From a virus: a DNA stretch of 21,461 nt. Shown here one piece after another: positions 8,151-20,996 of this stretch. The stretch spans positions 1 to 21,461 of the IMG/VR virus record IMGVR_UViG_3300043313_000992. One strand, 5' to 3'. The notes under the pieces are model-generated. The model was given only the letters and a program-made list of their open reading frames with translations. It was not told the origin of the DNA and searched no databases. Both the position numbers and the translations under genes were made by a program. The first letter of the stretch is position 1. Every line of letters starts with the position of its first letter.

Positions 8151-8598
8151 GGTGCGGATGGCGCAAGTCGGTGACGCAGAGAAGGTCACTGCCTTCCTGG
8201 AAGGATTCTTCCAGCGGTCGCGCTGGTCCGCCAACCTGACGTTCGATCCGGTCAAGACGCTCAACTACCTGCGGCGTGCCATTCACACCAACTACGCGCC
8301 TTACGTTCTCGCCTGGGATGGCGAGGCGATCGTCGGCTTGTGCAGCTATCATCTGTACGACGTGTTCACCAATCCGATCGCGGTGATGGACGAAACCTAC
8401 GTCGATCCGAAGTACCGCTTCACTGACCTGGGCCGCCGCATCGTCGGCACCGCCATCGAGCTGGCCAAAGCCGAGGGCTGCAAGGCCATGAACTTCCCGA
8501 TCGCCTCCGGCATGCAGCAGCAAAATGGGCTCGCCAACATGATCGGCCGCCACTTCGGCGGCGAGTATGTCGGCATGATTTTCATGGTGAGGCTCTGA
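8089..8598 (+). CDS. GNAT-family N-acetyltransferase-like protein
   Basis: Up to 169 aa, with a GNAT fold: strand/helix IEVRMAQVGDAEKVTAFLEG (residues 21-40), strands APYVLAWDGEAIVGLCSY and MDETYVDPKYR, then the acetyl-CoA loop region RFTDLGRRIVGTAIELAKAE and the late strand CKAMNFPI. The usual Q/R-x-x-G-x-G/A loop is altered to TDLGRR, so activity is uncertain. GNAT-like genes of this sort are common beside internal virion proteins of podoviruses. The ATG at 8089 gives a 62-base overlap with the gene before and no clear ribosome site. GTG at 8152 or ATG at 8158, just after the preceding stop and with GAGGTG nearby, are alternatives; the GTG keeps the first strand. The stop shares a base with the next ATG. 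Confidence 0.7.
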   Translation: MNIANRELPSPKRTIHTPHIEVRMAQVGDAEKVTAFLEGFFQRSRWSANLTFDPVKTLNYLRRAIHTNYAPYVLAWDGEAIVGLCSYHLYDVFTNPIAVMDETYVDPKYRFTDLGRRIVGTAIELAKAEGCKAMNFPIASGMQQQNGLANMIGRHFGGEYVGMIFMVRL

Positions 8599-9212
8599 TG
8601 GGTGGCAAGGGCGGCGCAACGATGCTGAACGGCATGATGGAAGGCCCCGAAGACGCGCAGGCCAGATACCAGCGCGCTGGGTCGGAGTTCAAAGAGATCA
8701 ACAACGCCCCTGGCGAACAGCAACCGCTGCCGCCGGAGTGGCTGGCCGGCGCGTTCCCGTCGGGCTCGGGGCGCTACGGTCTGCCGGGCGCGTTTGCGCT
8801 CAATGACGATCTCACGCGCCGCGATCCGTTCGGCAACGTCTACGACGGCAACACCGGCAAGATGATCAAGGAAGTCCACCCGCTGACGGGCCAGGCGGTC
8901 GGCCAGCCCTACGCCCGCGACAGCGCCACCAGCAGCGGCATGGAACCGTTCATGCCAGGCTACCAGGCTCCGTCCGCCCCGCCGGCCGAGCTGAACCTGA
9001 CCTCGCAGCCGGCCGCCGAGGCGGCCCCGGCCGCAGCACCGGCGGCAGCGGCCACCAGCACCGACCCGGCCTTGACGGCAGTGCCGGAAGCCGCACCAAG
9101 CGCCACCAATTCGACCGGGGATCTGCTAGGGGATTCCGTGCGCTCGCCTCCGGCGTACTGGTCGAACCAGAGCAACAAGGCCAAAGACAGCCTGAAGACG
9201 ACACAAACGTAG
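8598..9212 (+). CDS. MGGKGG cassette protein 1 (unknown, probable virion protein)
   Basis: A 204 aa protein of unknown function, first of three neighbours sharing short ends around unrelated centres. It begins MGGKGG and ends with LLGDSVRSPPAYWSNQ and KTTQT. Between these lie a fold-like segment, residues about 45-110 (LPPEWLAGAFPSGSGRYGLP, then DDLTRRDPFGNVYDGNTGK), and an Ala/Pro-rich linker at about 125-175. The 'DPFGNVYDGNTG' segment resembles strand-turn repeats but I recognise no domain. Its place between the gp13-like/GNAT genes and gp14-like genes suggests an internal or tail-associated virion part. ATG at 8598 overlaps the GNAT stop, with GTGAGG upstream. Confidence 0.7.
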   Translation: MGGKGGATMLNGMMEGPEDAQARYQRAGSEFKEINNAPGEQQPLPPEWLAGAFPSGSGRYGLPGAFALNDDLTRRDPFGNVYDGNTGKMIKEVHPLTGQAVGQPYARDSATSSGMEPFMPGYQAPSAPPAELNLTSQPAAEAAPAAAPAAAATSTDPALTAVPEAAPSATNSTGDLLGDSVRSPPAYWSNQSNKAKDSLKTTQT

Positions 9213-9240
9213 GAGCGCACCATGGGTGGCAAAGGCGGCG
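9210..9240 (+). repeat. Junction repeat copy 1 (stop/RBS/MGGKGG start)
   Basis: The bases TAGGAGCGCACCATGGG and the following GGCAA.GG.GGCG codons nearly match 9780-9810, differing at four positions in 31. The unit contains the stop codon of one cassette, the AGGAG ribosome site and the start of the next, so it marks the border of a duplicated gene unit. A related coding end, ACGAC(A/G)CAAACGTAG, occurs at the 3' ends of cassettes 1 and 3. Confidence 0.75.
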
Positions 9241-9782
9241 ACAGCGGCGGCGGTGGCGGTGGATCAGCGGTCTACGACCCCGAGACCGAGCACTACTATG
9301 TCAACGGCATCGCGTTGAACAACGATGGTCCCGAAGCCGGCGGCCTGTCCGGCAAGACCAAGGCGCAGATCCTGGCCGAACGCTCGCCGCCACCGGCACC
9401 AGCGGCAGCAGCACCCGCGCCGGCGATCGTCGTGCCGGAGGAGGTGACGAAGGTCGATAACACGCCGAAGCCGGCACCGCAGGTCACCGAGGCCACGGGC
9501 CCGGCGGCCAGCACCGGCGCGCAGCTGGCGCAGCCGGTCGCGGCCGATAACACTCTCAGTACCGTCGGCACGAACACCGCCACCACCGGGCCTGCCACAG
9601 GCACCACCGGCAGCACCGGAGCCACTGGCGGCACCGGGACGACCGGCGGCACCGGCACCGGCACCACCGGCGACATCCTCGGCACCGCGGTGATCAAGCC
9701 GCCGAAATACTGGGTCGGCGGCATCAACACCTACGGCAAGAACAAAGCCAACACGACCGGCAGCATCACGACCACGAAGTAG
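9222..9782 (+). CDS. MGGKGG cassette protein 2 (collagen-like, unknown)
   Basis: A 186 aa protein that starts MGGKGGDSGGGGGGS and ends ILGTAVIKPPKYWVGG ... TGSITTTK, matching cassettes 1 and 3 at both ends. The centre begins with AVYDPETEHYYVNGIALNND, a short strand-turn segment, then is almost wholly low complexity: Ala/Pro-rich at about 60-90 and a run of x-T-G triplets at about 125-150 with glycine every third residue. No catalytic motif is visible. It is likely an extended or disordered virion protein. ATG at 9222 has AGGAG at 9211-9215, with the ribosome site overlapping the previous stop codon. Confidence 0.7.
   Translation: MGGKGGDSGGGGGGSAVYDPETEHYYVNGIALNNDGPEAGGLSGKTKAQILAERSPPPAPAAAAPAPAIVVPEEVTKVDNTPKPAPQVTEATGPAASTGAQLAQPVAADNTLSTVGTNTATTGPATGTTGSTGATGGTGTTGGTGTGTTGDILGTAVIKPPKYWVGGINTYGKNKANTTGSITTTK
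9594..9674 (+). repeat. x-T-G triplet repeat inside cassette 2
   Basis: An in-frame 9-base-type repeat (variants of RCC-ACC-GGC) encodes at least seven successive x-T-G units and then GTGTTG. Glycine recurs at every third residue as in collagen-like phage proteins, with Thr where collagen often has Pro. Such tracts change length readily by slippage. Confidence 0.7.
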
Positions 9783-9810
9783 GAGCGCGCCATGGGCGGC
9801 AAGGGTGGCG
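9780..9810 (+). repeat. Junction repeat copy 2 (stop/RBS/MGGKGG start)
   Basis: Second copy of the stop, AGGAG and MGGKGG start unit, starting TAGGAGCGCGCCATGGGC. It matches the copy at 9210-9240 at all but four positions. It lies at the border between cassettes 2 and 3. Confidence 0.75.
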
Positions 9811-10130
9811 GCGGCGGGGACTACTACCAGCAACCGCCGGACACATCGGGCTACGGCACGCCGGAGGAAGCGCGGGCGTCACTCGCCCGCGAGACGCCGC
9901 TCGACATGTCGCAGTACCAGCAGACCATCAACGTACAGCGCGCGGCGGCTGACGCCACCGCGCCCGAACCACCGCCGATCGTGTCAACCGGCACGCCGAC
10001 AACCAGTCCACTCGGCACCGGCGAGAGCCTTGCCAATGCGGTGTTGAAGCCGCCGGAATACTGGAAGGGCGCGGGCATGCAGCCGCGCAAGGCGACCGAC
10101 CAATCAAGCGTCGTCACGACGCAAACGTAG
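9792..10130 (+). CDS. MGGKGG cassette protein 3 (unknown)
   Basis: A 112 aa protein, the shortest cassette. It starts MGGKGGGGGDYYQQPPD and ends SLANAVLKPPEYWKGAG ... SSVVTTQT, keeping the PPxYW box about 25 residues from the end and the final TTQT. The centre (GYGTPEEARASLARETPLDM, SQYQQTINVQRAAADAT) may hold one or two short helices, then a Pro/Thr-rich linker. No known domain is recognised. It shares 5' and 3' DNA borders with its neighbours, so it is probably a duplicate whose middle has been replaced or worn down. ATG at 9792 follows AGGAG at 9781-9785. Confidence 0.7.
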   Translation: MGGKGGGGGDYYQQPPDTSGYGTPEEARASLARETPLDMSQYQQTINVQRAAADATAPEPPPIVSTGTPTTSPLGTGESLANAVLKPPEYWKGAGMQPRKATDQSSVVTTQT

Positions 10131-10140
10131 AGGACATGAG

Positions 10141-10782
10141 ATGGGAGGAAAATCCGGTCCTTCAAACAATCAGATGGTGCAGTTCGAAATGCAGCAGGCC
10201 CAGGAGGCCAAGGCAAAGGAGAACAAGCGCCAGGCACGCCTCGACCAGGGCAAAGCCGCGATCGATTCACTATTCGGCAAGGAGAACTTCGGCGACAACT
10301 TCTATGACAAGTACCGCGTCAACGAACTGAACTACTCGCTGCCGCAGTTGCACCAGCAGTACGACACCGCGAAGAACGCGATGACTTACGACCTGGCGCG
10401 CGCTGGCACGCTGCGATCGACCGCTGCTGGATATGCCCAAGCGCTGCTGGAAGGCCAGAACGCTGTCAACGAAGGCGGCATCCGCGCCAAGGCAGACACA
10501 GACACCGCGGCGTTGCGCAACAGCATCGCGAGCCAGCAACAGCAGGCCTACAACCAGCTCTACGCCACCGAAGATCCGACTGTGGCGGCGAACACCGCGG
10601 CCAACAGCGTGGCCAACGCGCAGCTGACGCAGCCTAATACTGGAGCATTGGGCGATCTGTTCAAGCCGATCGCCATCGGCCTCGGCTCGGCGATCGCACC
10701 GGCGTATGGTGCGCAACAAGCGAACGCCTACCTGAACGCGCCGTCCGGCCGGCAGCAGGGTTCTCAGACCAACACGGCATAG
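10141..10782 (+). CDS. Internal virion (core) protein with MGGK start
   Basis: A 213 aa mainly helical protein starting MGGKSGPSNNQMVQFEMQQA. The segment LFGKENFGDNFYDKYRVNEL (residues about 43-62), NYSLPQLHQQYDTAKNAMTY and DLARAGTLRSTAAGYAQALL is a pattern I know from phage proteins coded beside gp14-like core proteins, in which an aromatic 'FYD' box precedes a 'PQL..QY..A....YALARAG' helix. The C-terminus has a Gly/Ala-rich hydrophobic helix (DLFKPIAIGLGSAIAPAYGA, about 174-193) that could touch membrane during ejection. It likely belongs to the internal core. The MGGK start is shared with the preceding cassettes but the PPxYW box is absent. ATG at 10141 follows AGAGGA. Confidence 0.65.
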   Translation: MGGKSGPSNNQMVQFEMQQAQEAKAKENKRQARLDQGKAAIDSLFGKENFGDNFYDKYRVNELNYSLPQLHQQYDTAKNAMTYDLARAGTLRSTAAGYAQALLEGQNAVNEGGIRAKADTDTAALRNSIASQQQQAYNQLYATEDPTVAANTAANSVANAQLTQPNTGALGDLFKPIAIGLGSAIAPAYGAQQANAYLNAPSGRQQGSQTNTA

Positions 10783-15437: not shown

Positions 15438-18248
15438 TTGGGCTACCTTGAAAACCAGGCGGTGCAGCGAGCGGCTCTCCGCCGCCGCCTGCTCAATGGT
15501 ACCGCCGGCGATGCCCCGCCGCCGGAAGGTCGTTTACCTGGTTTCGGCCAGGACACCGTGGCGCTGCTTCAGAACCTGGGCGTCAACCTCGGCGTGCCGA
15601 TGGGGCCGCGAGGGTTGCCGCCCGGCGTCGGGCCGCAGGGCGAGTTATCGCTCGCGCCGAAGGGCGTCAACGTCTCGCAACCGTCCGAATTGAGAGTGTC
15701 ACCGCACGCGGAAGGCCGGCGGCAGAGCGGCGGTGAAGGCCAGCAGGGCGGCGGAGGGGGCGACCTCGGTGGCGTCCTTGGAGGAATTTTCAAGAACGCG
15801 CGCGACAGCGCCATCCAGAACGCGAAGGCCGGACAGGGCCAACAGCCAGGCGGCGGCGCTAGCGGCCCGACCGGGCCGGCGCGGCTGCGCGATGCGGCCA
15901 CCCGCGGCAACTCGCCAGAAGGGCGATCGGCCAAGGCGCGCGAGCTGATCCCCGGCCTGCGGCCCGGCATCGACGCCGCACAGGCAAGGCCGGGCGAAGC
16001 CGCCGCCAACGCCTACCAAACAGAGCAACAAGGTGGCCGCGGGGTGGTTGGCGTCGAGCGCGGCGGCGCGGGCTACAAGGCCGACATGGACTACCTGTCC
16101 GACCACGGTGGTCACGCCACCATCATGAAGGACGGCAAGAAAGTGAACGTGCGGGTCGATACGCCCGGTGCTTACGGCGCGCTCGACCCCGAGCTGGCGG
16201 CCCGCCTGCGGGCGGCCGGCGAGGCTTACGAGAAGGAAACCGGCAAGCCCCCGCAATACGGCGAGTTCTCCCGCGGCGAGGACGTGCAGAAGACCTACTG
16301 GGAAGAAAGCGCGCACGGTACCAAGTACGCCGCCGCCCCTCCCGGCCGATCGAACCACCAGAAGGGCGGTGCCGGCGATCTCCCGGCAGGCGGATTCCGC
16401 GACTGGCTGAATGCCGGCAACAAGGACAAGTTCGGCGTGCATTTCCCGGTCAAGGGCGATGAGCCGCATGTCGAGGTCAACCGCGCCTTCAAGGGCGGCA
16501 ACTTCGCCAACAGCGGTCCGGCAGCGCCGGGCTGGGACACCTCGCAAACCCCGCAAACCCCGCAGGCGGACACGCAATGGCCGGGTGCTGGCGAGACGAC
16601 GTCGGCTGACAGGATCTCCGCGCGGCCGGTGAACACCGCCCCGCCGGGCCAGGTCACGCCGGAGCTGATGAAGTCCATCAGCCAGCTGGAGAGCGGCGGC
16701 GACCCCAACGCGGTGCGCGGCTCCTACAAAGGCTTGCACCAGATCACCGATGAGACGTTCCGGCAGTATGGCGGGAAGGGCTCGATCTTCGATCCGGCCG
16801 AGAACACGCGCGTGGCGCAGCTGGCCACGGCCGACACCGCGCGCAACCTGTCAGCCCAGCTCGGCCGGCCGGTGACGGCCAGCGAGATCTATCTCGCGCA
16901 CCAACAGGGCTATGGCGGCGCGGCGGCACACCTGAAGAACCCGAACCAGCCGGCCTGGCAATCGATGCTGTCCACCGGCGAAGGCCAGCAGAAGGGCGAA
17001 GCCTGGGCCAAGCAGGCGATCTGGGGCAACCTGCCGGAGGAGGCGCGCGCCCGCTTCGGCAAGGTCGAGAACGTCACCAGCGGCGACTTCATCAATCACT
17101 GGAAAGAACGCGGTGCCGCTGCCGGGATCACCGATGCCCCGCGCGGGCCGATCGATCCGAAGGCCGGCACGGTCGAGATCGCGCCAGCGCGCACCGCCGC
17201 TGCCGCACCGCCGCCGCCGCCGGCTGTCGCGGCACCTCCACCCCAACCTGCGGTGCCGCCTGCCCCGGCGGTAGCGCCGCAGCCTGCTGCCCCAGTGGCT
17301 CCTGCCCAGCCGCCACAGGCAGCGGCTCCGGCCCCGGCTCCCGCTCCGGCACCCCCGCCGCGGTCGGCCGGGGTCGTTGCCGCGGACAAGTTCCTGAACG
17401 GGACGGTTGGCGATGCCGTGCGCCAGGTCGCGCCCTGGCAGGCCGCGCTGCTCCCCAACGAATACGCCAAGATGACCGTCTGGCAGGCCATGAACGATCC
17501 GAAGATCGGCAAGATGGTCAAGGACAACCTCGGCGAACACCTCGGCAAGTTCGGCGTCAAACAACCGGACCTGGACCAGGCGGTCAAAGAGCGCACAACC
17601 GGCAAGCGCACCGAGGCGCTGCCCGGCACCTCCGAAGGCCTGCTCCAGCAGGCCGAAGGAAAACCTGTTGACCTGAATCAGCCTGCTGCACAACGTTACG
17701 CCGAGGCCCAACCGGCAACCATGACCGATGCCGGGCCGCAGCCGGCGCAACAGCAACCCGGCCAGCAACTGCCGGATTCCTTGAAGGCCGCGATCACCAA
17801 TGTGTTCGGCGGCGAGCAGGGCGGCCCCATGGCCGCCGCTCCGCCGCCGCCAGCAGATCCGATGTCGATGCCGGTATTGCCCTCCCAGGTCGCACCGGCG
17901 GCACCGGGTGCGCCGGGTGGGCCGCCCCCACCCGGCGGTCTGGCTCCTCCAGGGCTCGCGCCGCAGATGATGCTTGATGCAAGTCAAGGCAGTCCGATCG
18001 CGATGATGGGGCTGTCCCCGATCCAGCCTGTGCAGAACGTGCAGATGTCCACGCCGCTGGTTGACAGCATGGCCACGCAGCAGCCTTTTGCTTCTCAAGG
18101 CCTGTCACCGATTCCCTTCGCCGAGATGGCCGGCTGGGGCTGGGGCAGTCCGATGTCTGGCGGGCTCTTTGACGGTGGTGGCGGTGGCGGCTTCAGCGGC
18201 CTGGACATGGGCGGCATGGGCGGCGGGTTTACGTTCAGCGGCGGCTAG
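15438..18248 (+). CDS. Ejection protein with M15-type peptidase and lytic transglycosylase domains
   Basis: A 936 aa virion protein, probably the wall-opening part of the ejection machine (compare T7 gp16, which carries one transglycosylase domain). Residues about 216-355 look like an M15 D,D-peptidase: SNHQKGGAGD places H307 and D314 in the SxHxxGxAxD pattern, and EPHVEV gives H344 as third zinc ligand. Residues about 410-520 look like an SLT transglycosylase: ISQLESGGDP puts the catalytic Glu at 418, with GLHQIT and later HQQGYGGAAAHL. A Pro/Ala linker spans about 582-642, and the C-terminus is Gly/Met-rich. The start is TTG at 15438, right after the previous TAG, with AGGAGG at 15426-15431; no better ATG exists. 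Domain calls come from motifs, not a search. Confidence 0.75.
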   Translation: MGYLENQAVQRAALRRRLLNGTAGDAPPPEGRLPGFGQDTVALLQNLGVNLGVPMGPRGLPPGVGPQGELSLAPKGVNVSQPSELRVSPHAEGRRQSGGEGQQGGGGGDLGGVLGGIFKNARDSAIQNAKAGQGQQPGGGASGPTGPARLRDAATRGNSPEGRSAKARELIPGLRPGIDAAQARPGEAAANAYQTEQQGGRGVVGVERGGAGYKADMDYLSDHGGHATIMKDGKKVNVRVDTPGAYGALDPELAARLRAAGEAYEKETGKPPQYGEFSRGEDVQKTYWEESAHGTKYAAAPPGRSNHQKGGAGDLPAGGFRDWLNAGNKDKFGVHFPVKGDEPHVEVNRAFKGGNFANSGPAAPGWDTSQTPQTPQADTQWPGAGETTSADRISARPVNTAPPGQVTPELMKSISQLESGGDPNAVRGSYKGLHQITDETFRQYGGKGSIFDPAENTRVAQLATADTARNLSAQLGRPVTASEIYLAHQQGYGGAAAHLKNPNQPAWQSMLSTGEGQQKGEAWAKQAIWGNLPEEARARFGKVENVTSGDFINHWKERGAAAGITDAPRGPIDPKAGTVEIAPARTAAAAPPPPPAVAAPPPQPAVPPAPAVAPQPAAPVAPAQPPQAAAPAPAPAPAPPPRSAGVVAADKFLNGTVGDAVRQVAPWQAALLPNEYAKMTVWQAMNDPKIGKMVKDNLGEHLGKFGVKQPDLDQAVKERTTGKRTEALPGTSEGLLQQAEGKPVDLNQPAAQRYAEAQPATMTDAGPQPAQQQPGQQLPDSLKAAITNVFGGEQGGPMAAAPPPPADPMSMPVLPSQVAPAAPGAPGGPPPPGGLAPPGLAPQMMLDASQGSPIAMMGLSPIQPVQNVQMSTPLVDSMATQQPFASQGLSPIPFAEMAGWGWGSPMSGGLFDGGGGGGFSGLDMGGMGGGFTFSGG

Positions 18249-19372: not shown

Positions 19373-19777
19373 TCAGACGACGTTTGTACCTTCAACGCCG
19401 CGCTGCATCCGCTTCAGCGTCCGGCTGTGAAGCCACTGCTGCGCCTCCTCGATCTTCGTCAGCGCCAAAGCGTTTTCCCGAGATGAAAACGGCCCTGCCT
19501 GAAATGAGCGCAGACGATCAGCGACGATCTCAAGCAACACTTCCTGCGTGACACCGTTGACGCCGTGTTCGTTAATTGGTCCGTTCTGGAACAGTATGAC
19601 AAGGCCGTCCATTTGTGCCGCTGGCATCTTATTAGTGACCGCAGACGGGTTGCCCGATGCGTCGAACCCTGTGATCTCATAGCGATGGTTAGCGCCGCCT
19701 GCGCCCGGATCGTCAGTGACTTCTATCTTCAGCACGTCGTTTGCGGGGTTCACCTTGTGGCCTGTAAGCTGTCTCAT
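19373..19777 (-). CDS. Candidate Acb2/Tad1-type nucleotide-signal sponge (anti-CBASS/Thoeris)
   Basis: A 134 aa reverse-strand protein starting MRQLTGHKVNPANDVLKIEV. A strand-rich first part (HRYEITGF at 31-38, DGLVILFQNGPI at 57-68) leads to GVNGVTQEVLLEIVADRLRS (72-91) and GPFSSRENALALTKIEEAQQ (95-114), WLHSRTLKRMQRGVEGT. The last part is the helical hairpin ('SREN.LA.TKLEEA..WL..RT..R..RGVEGT') that I recall being labelled Acb2/Tad1 hairpin in phage proteins. Acb2 and Tad1 bind the cyclic nucleotide or gcADPR signals of CBASS and Thoeris defences. Whether the pocket residues are kept cannot be judged here. ATG at 19777 has an AGGAG site (on the reverse strand) about 8 bases away; the longer frame from 19954 is rejected since it runs through a terminator. 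It lies downstream of the PEP-CTERM gene. Confidence 0.6.
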   Translation of the reverse strand: MRQLTGHKVNPANDVLKIEVTDDPGAGGANHRYEITGFDASGNPSAVTNKMPAAQMDGLVILFQNGPINEHGVNGVTQEVLLEIVADRLRSFQAGPFSSRENALALTKIEEAQQWLHSRTLKRMQRGVEGTNVV

Positions 19778-19829
19778 TCTGTAATCTCCTGTGGTGGGTT
19801 TACTCAGGTACGCAATTGTGAATGCACAT

Positions 19830-19870
19830 GAAAACGCCGCCGGCGAGCCCTGGACTCTTCCGACGGCGTC
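19830..19870 (-). terminator. Rho-independent terminator of PEP-CTERM gene
   Basis: On the reverse strand ACGCCGTCGG pairs with CCGGCGGCGT (10 bp, one T-G pair; + strand arms 19860-19869 and 19834-19843), followed by TTTTC. It sits about 35 bases past the stop of the PEP-CTERM gene and would end its message, so the sponge candidate needs readthrough or its own promoter in 19778-19830. Confidence 0.75.
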
Positions 19871-19904
19871 CTCATCACATCCACGCGGTTCGGCGCGCGG
19901 ACGA

Positions 19905-20669
19905 TCAGACTGTACGCAATTTACGCTGACGCTGACGCAACGATACAAAACCAATGCCGGCGAAGCCGGCGATCATCATGAACCAGGTCGAAGCCTCGGG
20001 AACGGCTTCCGCCTGCGGCGTCGGCACCAGGAAGAAGCTGTCGGGGCCGTCATTCGCGCCCGAGATGCGCGCGAAGAAGATGATCTGATCACCTGGCAGG
20101 ATATCGCCACGCTGCAAGTTGAAACCGCTCAACGTGTAATCCGGGAAGCCGGTGCCGTTGTTCTGCGAGGGCACCAGCACGCCACCGGGCTCTGGCGAGA
20201 ACGCCGCCAGCACCGTGTGCTGCGTGAGGTTGAGGAAGTAGAAGCTCTCCAGCGTCTGCGGCGTGCCGGTATCGTTGACATCGAAGCCGACGGTGAAGGC
20301 TAGCGCCGGGTCGTTGTTGGCTAGCAGGAAGGCCCGCAGGAATGAGCCGTCGTAGCCGGTGCCAATGGTGTCGAAGCCGGGATTGGCTCCACCGACAACC
20401 GCCGTCGAGAAGTAAGCGAGGTCGCTTTGGCCGCCGTTGTTCTTGAAATCGGTGTAACCGAAGTTGGCGGGCTGTTGCGGCTGGTTGTCGCCGCAGATGA
20501 TGCATGGCGCGTTCAGCGGCTGGTTGCCGCCGGGCACCGTCGGCGTCAGTGACAGGGTGGTGGCTCCACCAGTGGTCCAGAGCTGGTTGCCGATAACGAC
20601 GTCGGCAGCTGCGGGATCGGTGAACGCGATCGACAGCAGGCCGACGGCCAGTAACGCTTTTCTCAGCAT
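19905..20669 (-). CDS. Secreted PEP-CTERM (exosortase-sorted) protein
   Basis: A 254 aa reverse-strand protein. The signal peptide is MLRKALLAVGLLSIAFTDPA, with probable cleavage after PAAA (about residue 22). The mature part is strand-rich with Asn, Gly and Thr-rich loops, a CIICGD pair, and segments such as FTVGFDVNDTGTPQTLESFY, FPDYTLSGFNLQRGDILPGD and QIIFFARISGANDGPDSFFL. The end is a PEP-CTERM signal: VPEASTW (from residue 223), a hydrophobic stretch FMMIAGFAGIGFVSL, then RQRQRK. Such tails are recognised by exosortase, which moves and trims the protein during export, often together with exopolysaccharide. The Ala in place of the usual Pro (VPEAST for VPEPST) is a variant. ATG at 20669 has GGAGG on the reverse strand. 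It is an unusual gene within a phage. Confidence 0.75.
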   Translation of the reverse strand: MLRKALLAVGLLSIAFTDPAAADVVIGNQLWTTGGATTLSLTPTVPGGNQPLNAPCIICGDNQPQQPANFGYTDFKNNGGQSDLAYFSTAVVGGANPGFDTIGTGYDGSFLRAFLLANNDPALAFTVGFDVNDTGTPQTLESFYFLNLTQHTVLAAFSPEPGGVLVPSQNNGTGFPDYTLSGFNLQRGDILPGDQIIFFARISGANDGPDSFFLVPTPQAEAVPEASTWFMMIAGFAGIGFVSLRQRQRKLRTV

Positions 20670-20694
20670 GATTTAACCTCCAGGGGGTGTGTGG

Positions 20695-20736
20695 CTTGAC
20701 TACAGCATCATCCGCGCCATGTCTTGCGAAGTCAAG
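20695..20736. promoter_or_regulatory. Inverted CTTGACT/AGTCAAG pair between divergent genes
   Basis: CTTGACT at 20695-20701 and AGTCAAG at 20730-20736 are perfect 7-base inverted copies separated by 28 bases. One arm overlaps the PEP-CTERM -35 box. The pair may be face-to-face promoter boxes or operator half sites for the adjacent HTH regulator. The + strand lacks a good -10 box at the right distance. Confidence 0.45.
20707..20735 (-). promoter_or_regulatory. Sigma70-like promoter for PEP-CTERM gene
   Basis: On the reverse strand TTGACT (20735-20730), a 17-base spacer, then GATGAT (20712-20707) resemble a -35/-10 pair (5 of 6 and 4 of 6 matches). It lies about 40 bases before the PEP-CTERM ATG at 20669 and its GGAGG ribosome site, so the gene likely has its own constitutive-type promoter. 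Confidence 0.6.
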
Positions 20737-20759: not shown

Positions 20760-20996
20760 ATGGCAACAGCAAACGCACCCCAGAAACCAAAGATCCTCAC
20801 CTCCGTCGATACCGTCATCGACACCCTCGGCGGCAATCTTGCCGTGGCCAAGCTGTTCAATACCGCGCCAAGCGCGGTGTCGAACTGGCGCGGCACCGGC
20901 CGGTTCCCGGCGCGCACCTACGTGCTGATCCAGACCGAGCTGGACAAGAAGAACCTGCTCGGCTCGGACGGGCTGTGGGCCATGTATGTCAAGTAA
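20760..20996 (+). CDS. Small helix-turn-helix (Cro/YdaS-like) regulator
   Basis: A 78 aa protein starting MATANAPQKPKILTSVDTVI. Residues about 16-60 contain the helix-turn-helix: DTLGGNLAVAKLFNTAPSAV then SNWRGTGRFPARTYVLIQTE, in which 'LGG..AVAKL....SAVSNWR..GRFPARTY' is the YdaS/Cro-like pattern common in phages of alphaproteobacteria. It probably binds DNA as a dimer and regulates a nearby promoter. ATG at 20760 follows TAGGAAAA at 20747-20754. It is divergent from the PEP-CTERM gene, with an inverted repeat in between, and is followed by a helical protein gene in the same direction. Confidence 0.7.
   Translation: MATANAPQKPKILTSVDTVIDTLGGNLAVAKLFNTAPSAVSNWRGTGRFPARTYVLIQTELDKKNLLGSDGLWAMYVK

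Follow-up and report, generated by a model that had tools for sequence, protein, structure and literature searches.

Organization of the locus

The window analysed here, the complete 21,461-nt stretch of viral DNA from an IMG/VR virus record, contains portal, major head and transglycosylase genes, and its structural genes reach position 18248. The gene of interest, referred to below as the cargo gene, is part of a minus-strand island with the late operon on one side and a divergent Cro-like gene on the other. The features of this region are:

19905-20669, minus strand: cargo gene (family 0), ATG start, encoding a 254-residue secreted protein with a PEP-CTERM-type tail
20604-20669, minus strand: signal peptide, residues 1-22 (assigned by eye from a basic n-region, a hydrophobic core and AAA ahead of the mature start)
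20022-20603, minus strand: mature beta-sandwich domain, residues 23-216 (AlphaFold2, invariant columns, dN/dS)
19908-20003, minus strand: C-terminal sorting tail, residues 223-254 (VPEASTW motif, transmembrane helix, basic cluster)
20677-20681, minus strand: ribosome-binding site GGAGG (by inspection)
20707-20735, minus strand: sigma-70-like promoter TTGACT-17-GATGAT (weak, 9 of 12 matches)
19822-19880, minus strand: intrinsic terminator hairpin followed by TTTTC (-35.4 kcal/mol, z -6.3)
19373-19777, minus strand: Tad1/Acb2 anti-Thoeris/anti-CBASS protein, 134 residues (PDB 8y6v, 8kbg and 7uav, E 1e-19 to 1e-21)
20760-20996, plus strand: Cro/YdaS-like early regulator, 78 residues, divergent from the cargo gene (P22_Cro, E 1.5e-4)

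By inspection, the N-terminus of the protein, MLRKALLAVGLLSIAFTDPAAA, is a classical signal peptide, and sequence features show that a signal peptide is kept in all N-terminally complete homologs. Four relatives (L024, L025, L028 and L033) have signal peptides containing a lipobox-like LLSCG or LISCG; they may be lipoproteins, whether or not they are also exosortase substrates. The C-terminus of the window protein, VPEASTWFMMIAGFAGIGFVSLRQRQRKLRTV, comprises the VPEASTW motif, a hydrophobic helix and the basic cluster RQRQRK; PEA stands where PEP is typical, a variant that PEPxxW-type tails allow. The protein matches the Pfam PEP-CTERM model PF07589 at 21.9 bits, above the cut-off of 20.7. Its best NCBIfam match is PEPxxWA-CTERM (NF035944, E 9e-7), but the score falls under the 35-bit cut-off of that model. 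The open reading frame, the Pfam match and the signal peptide confirm the claim of the initial annotation that a complete secreted protein of the PEP-CTERM type is encoded here.

The same annotation assigned the gene its own terminator and promoter. The strong minus-strand hairpin bears out the former, while the promoter stands only in part: the site is present, but chance alone would give about 0.4 sites of this kind in the region against the one seen, which makes it suggestive at most.

The mature domain, of about 194 residues, carries the invariant motifs CxxCG.NQ.Q, NGTG.PD and DGPDSFF (window numbering; A1/A2 invariant columns). AlphaFold2 models it as a beta-sandwich (pLDDT 86.6, pTM 0.87). 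Foldseek returned no match with E below 0.001; the best Z score, 7.4-7.5, belongs to a beta-sandwich domain from an Akkermansia enzyme, and carbohydrate-binding modules, lectins and viral jelly-rolls rank next. Because the fold is common and all Z scores lie below 8, no specific function can be read from the structure.

Phage origin of the cargo gene

The portal and capsid proteins of the window resemble those of Microcystis phage Mae-Yong1326-1 (~50%) and Rhizobium phage RHph_N65 (~40%); no match to Tad1, to the small island ORFs or to the large transglycosylase gene of the window was found in either phage. In the structural region (8598-10782, plus strand), four successive proteins with otherwise different sequences start with MGGKGG or MGGKSG, a repeated N-terminal start module. 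A much closer relative is the sister phage on contig G026, whose major capsid protein and portal are 87% and 84% identical, respectively, to those of the window. Its cargo gene occupies the same locus, after the same large late gene and adjoining a Cro-like gene, yet the encoded body is just 53% identical to that of the window and the tail is VPLPAVGTGFPM (VPLPAVG) instead of PEPxxW. The two phages share the locus and differ in the address.

The cargo gene forms an independent unit between modules, with the late operon on one side and the early regulator on the other, and has a strong terminator and a weak promoter. Its own terminator and its place beside an anti-defence gene uphold the proposal that it is a self-contained cargo unit. 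The next gene in the island encodes Tad1/Acb2, a cyclic-nucleotide sponge whose match to PF24729 is weak; no conserved island of Tad1 plus cargo gene was seen, as Tad1 had no match at the other loci compared.

Relatives of the protein (family 0) were found in IMG/VR, on 35 contigs at first and then on 215. The carriers include an HK97-type phage (terminase, fused protease-capsid gene), phages whose portal is P22-like and a further one encoding a tape-measure protein, and the position of the gene varies among them, either between the terminase and capsid genes or facing the end of the late operon. This sporadic and mosaic occurrence, across three or more phage types and at differing genome positions, indicates that the family-0 gene moves between phages as cargo. 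The assignment of the gene as phage cargo is thus supported.

Homologs in host genomes had been proposed as support for the initial annotation. None was found: two scans of 84,980 prokaryotic species genomes gave no family-0 relative, with short back-translated patterns by which distant relatives could be missed. The body therefore looks virus-specific. Likewise, tblastn found no family-0 relative in 50,697 phage records or 72,556 plasmid records. No exosortase gene was detected in the 15 carrier phage contigs searched (0/15), as expected if the phages rely on the enzyme of their host.

Body and tail evolve differently

To compare the two parts of the protein quantitatively, we calculated dN/dS for 18 pairs of relatives. 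Values for the body are 0.03-0.13 in 17 of the 18 pairs and 0.27 in one distant pair, and the body is under strong purifying selection; values for the tail in the same pairs are 0.05-0.43. All 84 family-0 members inspected (66 distinct) end in a motif, a hydrophobic helix and a basic cluster. Their motifs fall into about seven classes (VPGPxxGAG[LI]PG, PEPxxW, PxPAxVWLFG, TPLPAS, PEPGSL, VPLPAVG and VPLPPAV), with VPGPxxGAG[LI]PG the commonest at about half of the members. On a maximum-likelihood tree of the body, from which signal peptide and tail had been removed, the tail class changes at least 15 times, and several of these changes are forced by well-supported branches.

Conservation is much higher in the motif that precedes the helix than in the helix itself. 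Within the motif, VP, GAG and PG are nearly invariant, as is VPE..TW.MM in the PEPxxW class, a conservation that is partly selected by the class definition. The GC content of the carrier contigs, a crude proxy for the host, separates the tail classes weakly. In the nearest relative of the window protein (L037, 1217-1930), the tail sequence is VPGPTVGA-VPEPATWAMM, which looks like a shortened VPGP motif ahead of a PEPxxW tail; this stump is possibly a trace of tail exchange.

A wider class of tail-bearing phage proteins

Scanning IMG/VR for the motifs of three tail classes yielded at least 292 distinct tail-bearing proteins. The matches listed contain at least eight body families with at least eight members each, and among these matches the seven largest families (0-6) each carry two to five tail classes. 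That the tail can be exchanged and that proteins of this kind form a wider phage class both go beyond the initial annotation.

Some contigs carry two tail-bearing proteins of different families. Among the matches listed, the tail class of the two agrees in 37 of 37 such pairs, against a random expectation of 13.8, although the pairs are not fully independent, some contigs being related, and a tail with an unrecognised motif would not count as a disagreement. In a strict set restricted to families with at least three members, all 19 pairs among the matches listed agree, against 7.8 expected from family-specific tail frequencies (p ~5e-5 or less). For the matches listed, two tails from one contig also resemble each other more closely than tails from different contigs do (p 0.002). 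Agreement of tails within a genome could arise from recombination between tandem tails alone.

Most paired genes lie next to each other on the same strand, and in a set order: a member of family 0, 1, 5, 6 or 9, then one of family 2, 3 or 4. Ordered two-gene cassettes that encode unrelated secreted proteins with matching tails occur in L337, L339, L112 (the contig of L014), L126, L213, L270 and others, and the partners may act as a pair. A partner accompanies 5 of the 58 family-0 genes with enough flanking sequence; the gene of the window has none.

Family 3 scores above the cut-off of the FxDxF PEP-CTERM model (NF038126). Profile comparison aligned families 0 and 5 over 99 columns at 25% identity, which makes them probable distant relatives. 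Other high-scoring family pairs were distrusted, with fewer than 45 columns aligned and 0-4% identity. No relatives of the representatives of families 1-7 were found in the phage or plasmid records.

Several of the tails match the sorting models PEPxxWA, PEP-CTERM and VPLPA. The VPGPxxGAG[LI]PG tail matches no NCBIfam model, and it is present on many unrelated phage proteins (L107-L219), so that it is possibly an undescribed sorting signal. With this tail as query, nothing was found in plasmids, in a search that low-complexity masking may have affected.

Proposed mechanism

Since the phage proteins share the layout of bacterial PEP-CTERM proteins, the most economical mechanism is export, anchoring, exosortase cleavage and placement at the surface. 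We therefore propose, with a probability of about 0.62, that the gene is phage cargo that uses the exosortase of the host, that its tail is an exchangeable, host-matched address, and that its body alters the host surface. The protein would be exported by the Sec pathway and held transiently in the inner membrane by its C-terminal helix. The host exosortase would then recognise the short motif before the helix and cut there, and the beta-sandwich domain would be passed to the cell surface or the exopolysaccharide layer. Over evolution, the tail would be replaced so that it suits the sorting enzyme of whichever host is current, and every tail-bearing protein of one phage would carry the same class of address. 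An address that fits the host enzyme explains both tail exchange and agreement within a genome; a plain anchor predicts neither.

The purpose is less certain than the mechanism, with exclusion, effects on exopolysaccharide, a decoy function and matrix binding all candidates. Among phage envelope proteins, the most frequent role is to exclude superinfecting phages through a changed surface. Most likely, the changed cell surface would prevent competing phages from adsorbing, or exopolysaccharide and aggregation would be altered to the benefit of the phage. The anti-defence neighbour Tad1/Acb2 fits an island concerned with conflict.

A broader version of this proposal is one to which we give even odds. 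It describes a plug-in address system, in which several unrelated virus-borne surface proteins, often in an ordered two-gene cassette, gain the tag of the current host by recombination, with the exchange of tags accompanying a change of host; VPGPxxGAGxPG would then be an undescribed signal with an exosortase-like enzyme of its own.

Alternative explanations

Several alternatives bear on when the gene acts and on how its product works. The initial annotation proposed a lysogenic-conversion gene, expressed mainly from the prophage. The terminator, the possible promoter and the divergent orientation relative to the Cro-like gene are consistent with this, as are the integrase and repressor genes that RHph_N65 (L369, 11998-14306) and Mae-Yong1326-1 (L370, 9456-11326) carry on the minus strand, right before the early genes. 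The position of those genes is comparable to that of the cargo island in the window. The window contains no integrase, and a few carriers do have one: among 34 large carrier contigs, which may be incomplete, a tyrosine integrase scored above cut-off in 6 and a serine recombinase in 1. However, no integrase was detected in most of these contigs, and none of the 84,980 species, each represented by one genome, yielded a lysogenised genome. We consider lysogenic conversion possible but doubtful.

Could the protein instead work outside the cell, released at lysis or carried there as a lectin-like factor that binds exopolysaccharide and aids the spread of progeny? Carbohydrate-binding modules and lectins are among its weak structural neighbours, but no Z score reaches 8 and these neighbours are not distinct from the common fold; moreover, the gene lies outside the lysis operon in most phages. 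Such a matrix-related role appears unlikely.

Slightly less likely again is that the tail is simply a stop-transfer helix with positive residues, which would tether the domain in the periplasm without any sorting enzyme and might, for example, block DNA entry by other phages. A signal peptide, a C-terminal helix and a basic cluster are enough to give this topology. They do not call for the other properties of the tails: the greater conservation of the motif relative to the helix (partly a product of class definition), the identity of the motifs with those of known sorting signals, and the shared tail class of unrelated proteins encoded on a single contig, which would not be required of an anchor.

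Host-matched tails would also be accounted for if the protein were a decoy, occupying the host exosortase in bulk so that the surface proteins and the exopolysaccharide layer of the host fail, with the body of little matter. A loss of exopolysaccharide retention, as described for Zoogloea in a statement in PMC9012009 when host PEP-CTERM expression is lost, would be explained in the same way. The strong purifying selection on the body and its many invariant residues indicate, however, that the body has a job of its own, and we regard a decoy as improbable.

Finally, some IMG/VR sequences are proviral or host flanks, and our scan gave a few one-off tail proteins that look host-like, but a host origin or an assembly error, the first of which the initial annotation had named as fatal to its claim, deserves almost no credence for a gene that has phage DNA on both sides, recurs at the same locus in a sister phage, belongs to a family of which no member was found in the 84,980 genomes scanned and is present on several carrier contigs of at least three phage types with TerL, portal, capsid or tape-measure genes.

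Relation to known systems

Exosortase substrates have been described as bacterial surface proteins, and we found no report of phage-encoded PEP-CTERM proteins or exosortase substrates in the literature searched. The layout of the phage tails is like that of the LPXTG surface proteins of Gram-positive bacteria, in which a C-terminal motif, a helix and a basic end are read by a host sorting enzyme, but enzyme and envelope are different. The function proposed here for the cargo protein is that of phage morons and superinfection-exclusion proteins such as P22 SieA (PMC10883804; reviewed in PMC11436027), accessory cargo that stops rival phages at the envelope. Unlike the window protein, SieA is a membrane protein of the phage that lacks a host sorting tag (PMC10883804), and exclusion by the window protein is a proposal.

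If phages do encode dedicated exosortase substrates and retune their tag, the host range of uncultured phages could be read from the tag, and the phages would be tools for finding which motif is read by which exosortase. Phages would also have a new means of altering the surfaces, aggregation and competition of soil bacteria.

Among the closest known systems are the PEP-CTERM/exosortase (EpsH) substrates of Gram-negative bacteria, which share with the phage proteins a signal peptide and a tail of short motif, transmembrane helix and basic end, and which co-occur with EpsH and exopolysaccharide genes (Haft 2006, PMC1569441). Shared as well are diverse bodies with little homology to known families, usually in single-gene units (PMC1569441). 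In Zoogloea, PEP-CTERM proteins are needed for floc formation, according to work cited in PMC9012009. Several phage tails match the VPLPA-CTERM (TIGR03370) and PEPxxWA-CTERM (NF035944) models, some with scores below the curated cut-offs, that of the window included. Family 3, a partner family and not that of the window, belongs to the FxDxF family (NF038126); some phage tail proteins thus have modelled bacterial relatives. The upstream site matched in the window is sigma-70-like, in contrast to the sigma-54/PrsR-type motif usual for PEP-CTERM genes in Proteobacteria (PMC1569441). The phage proteins differ from bacterial substrates in being encoded by phages, in having a body not found in the bacterial genomes scanned, and in carrying several tail classes per body family. 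The new element is a class of exosortase-type substrates that phages carry and whose tails, among them the frequent VPGP tail, can be exchanged. Conserved bodies with swapped tags suggest that a single surface protein is re-addressed by phages to suit different hosts.
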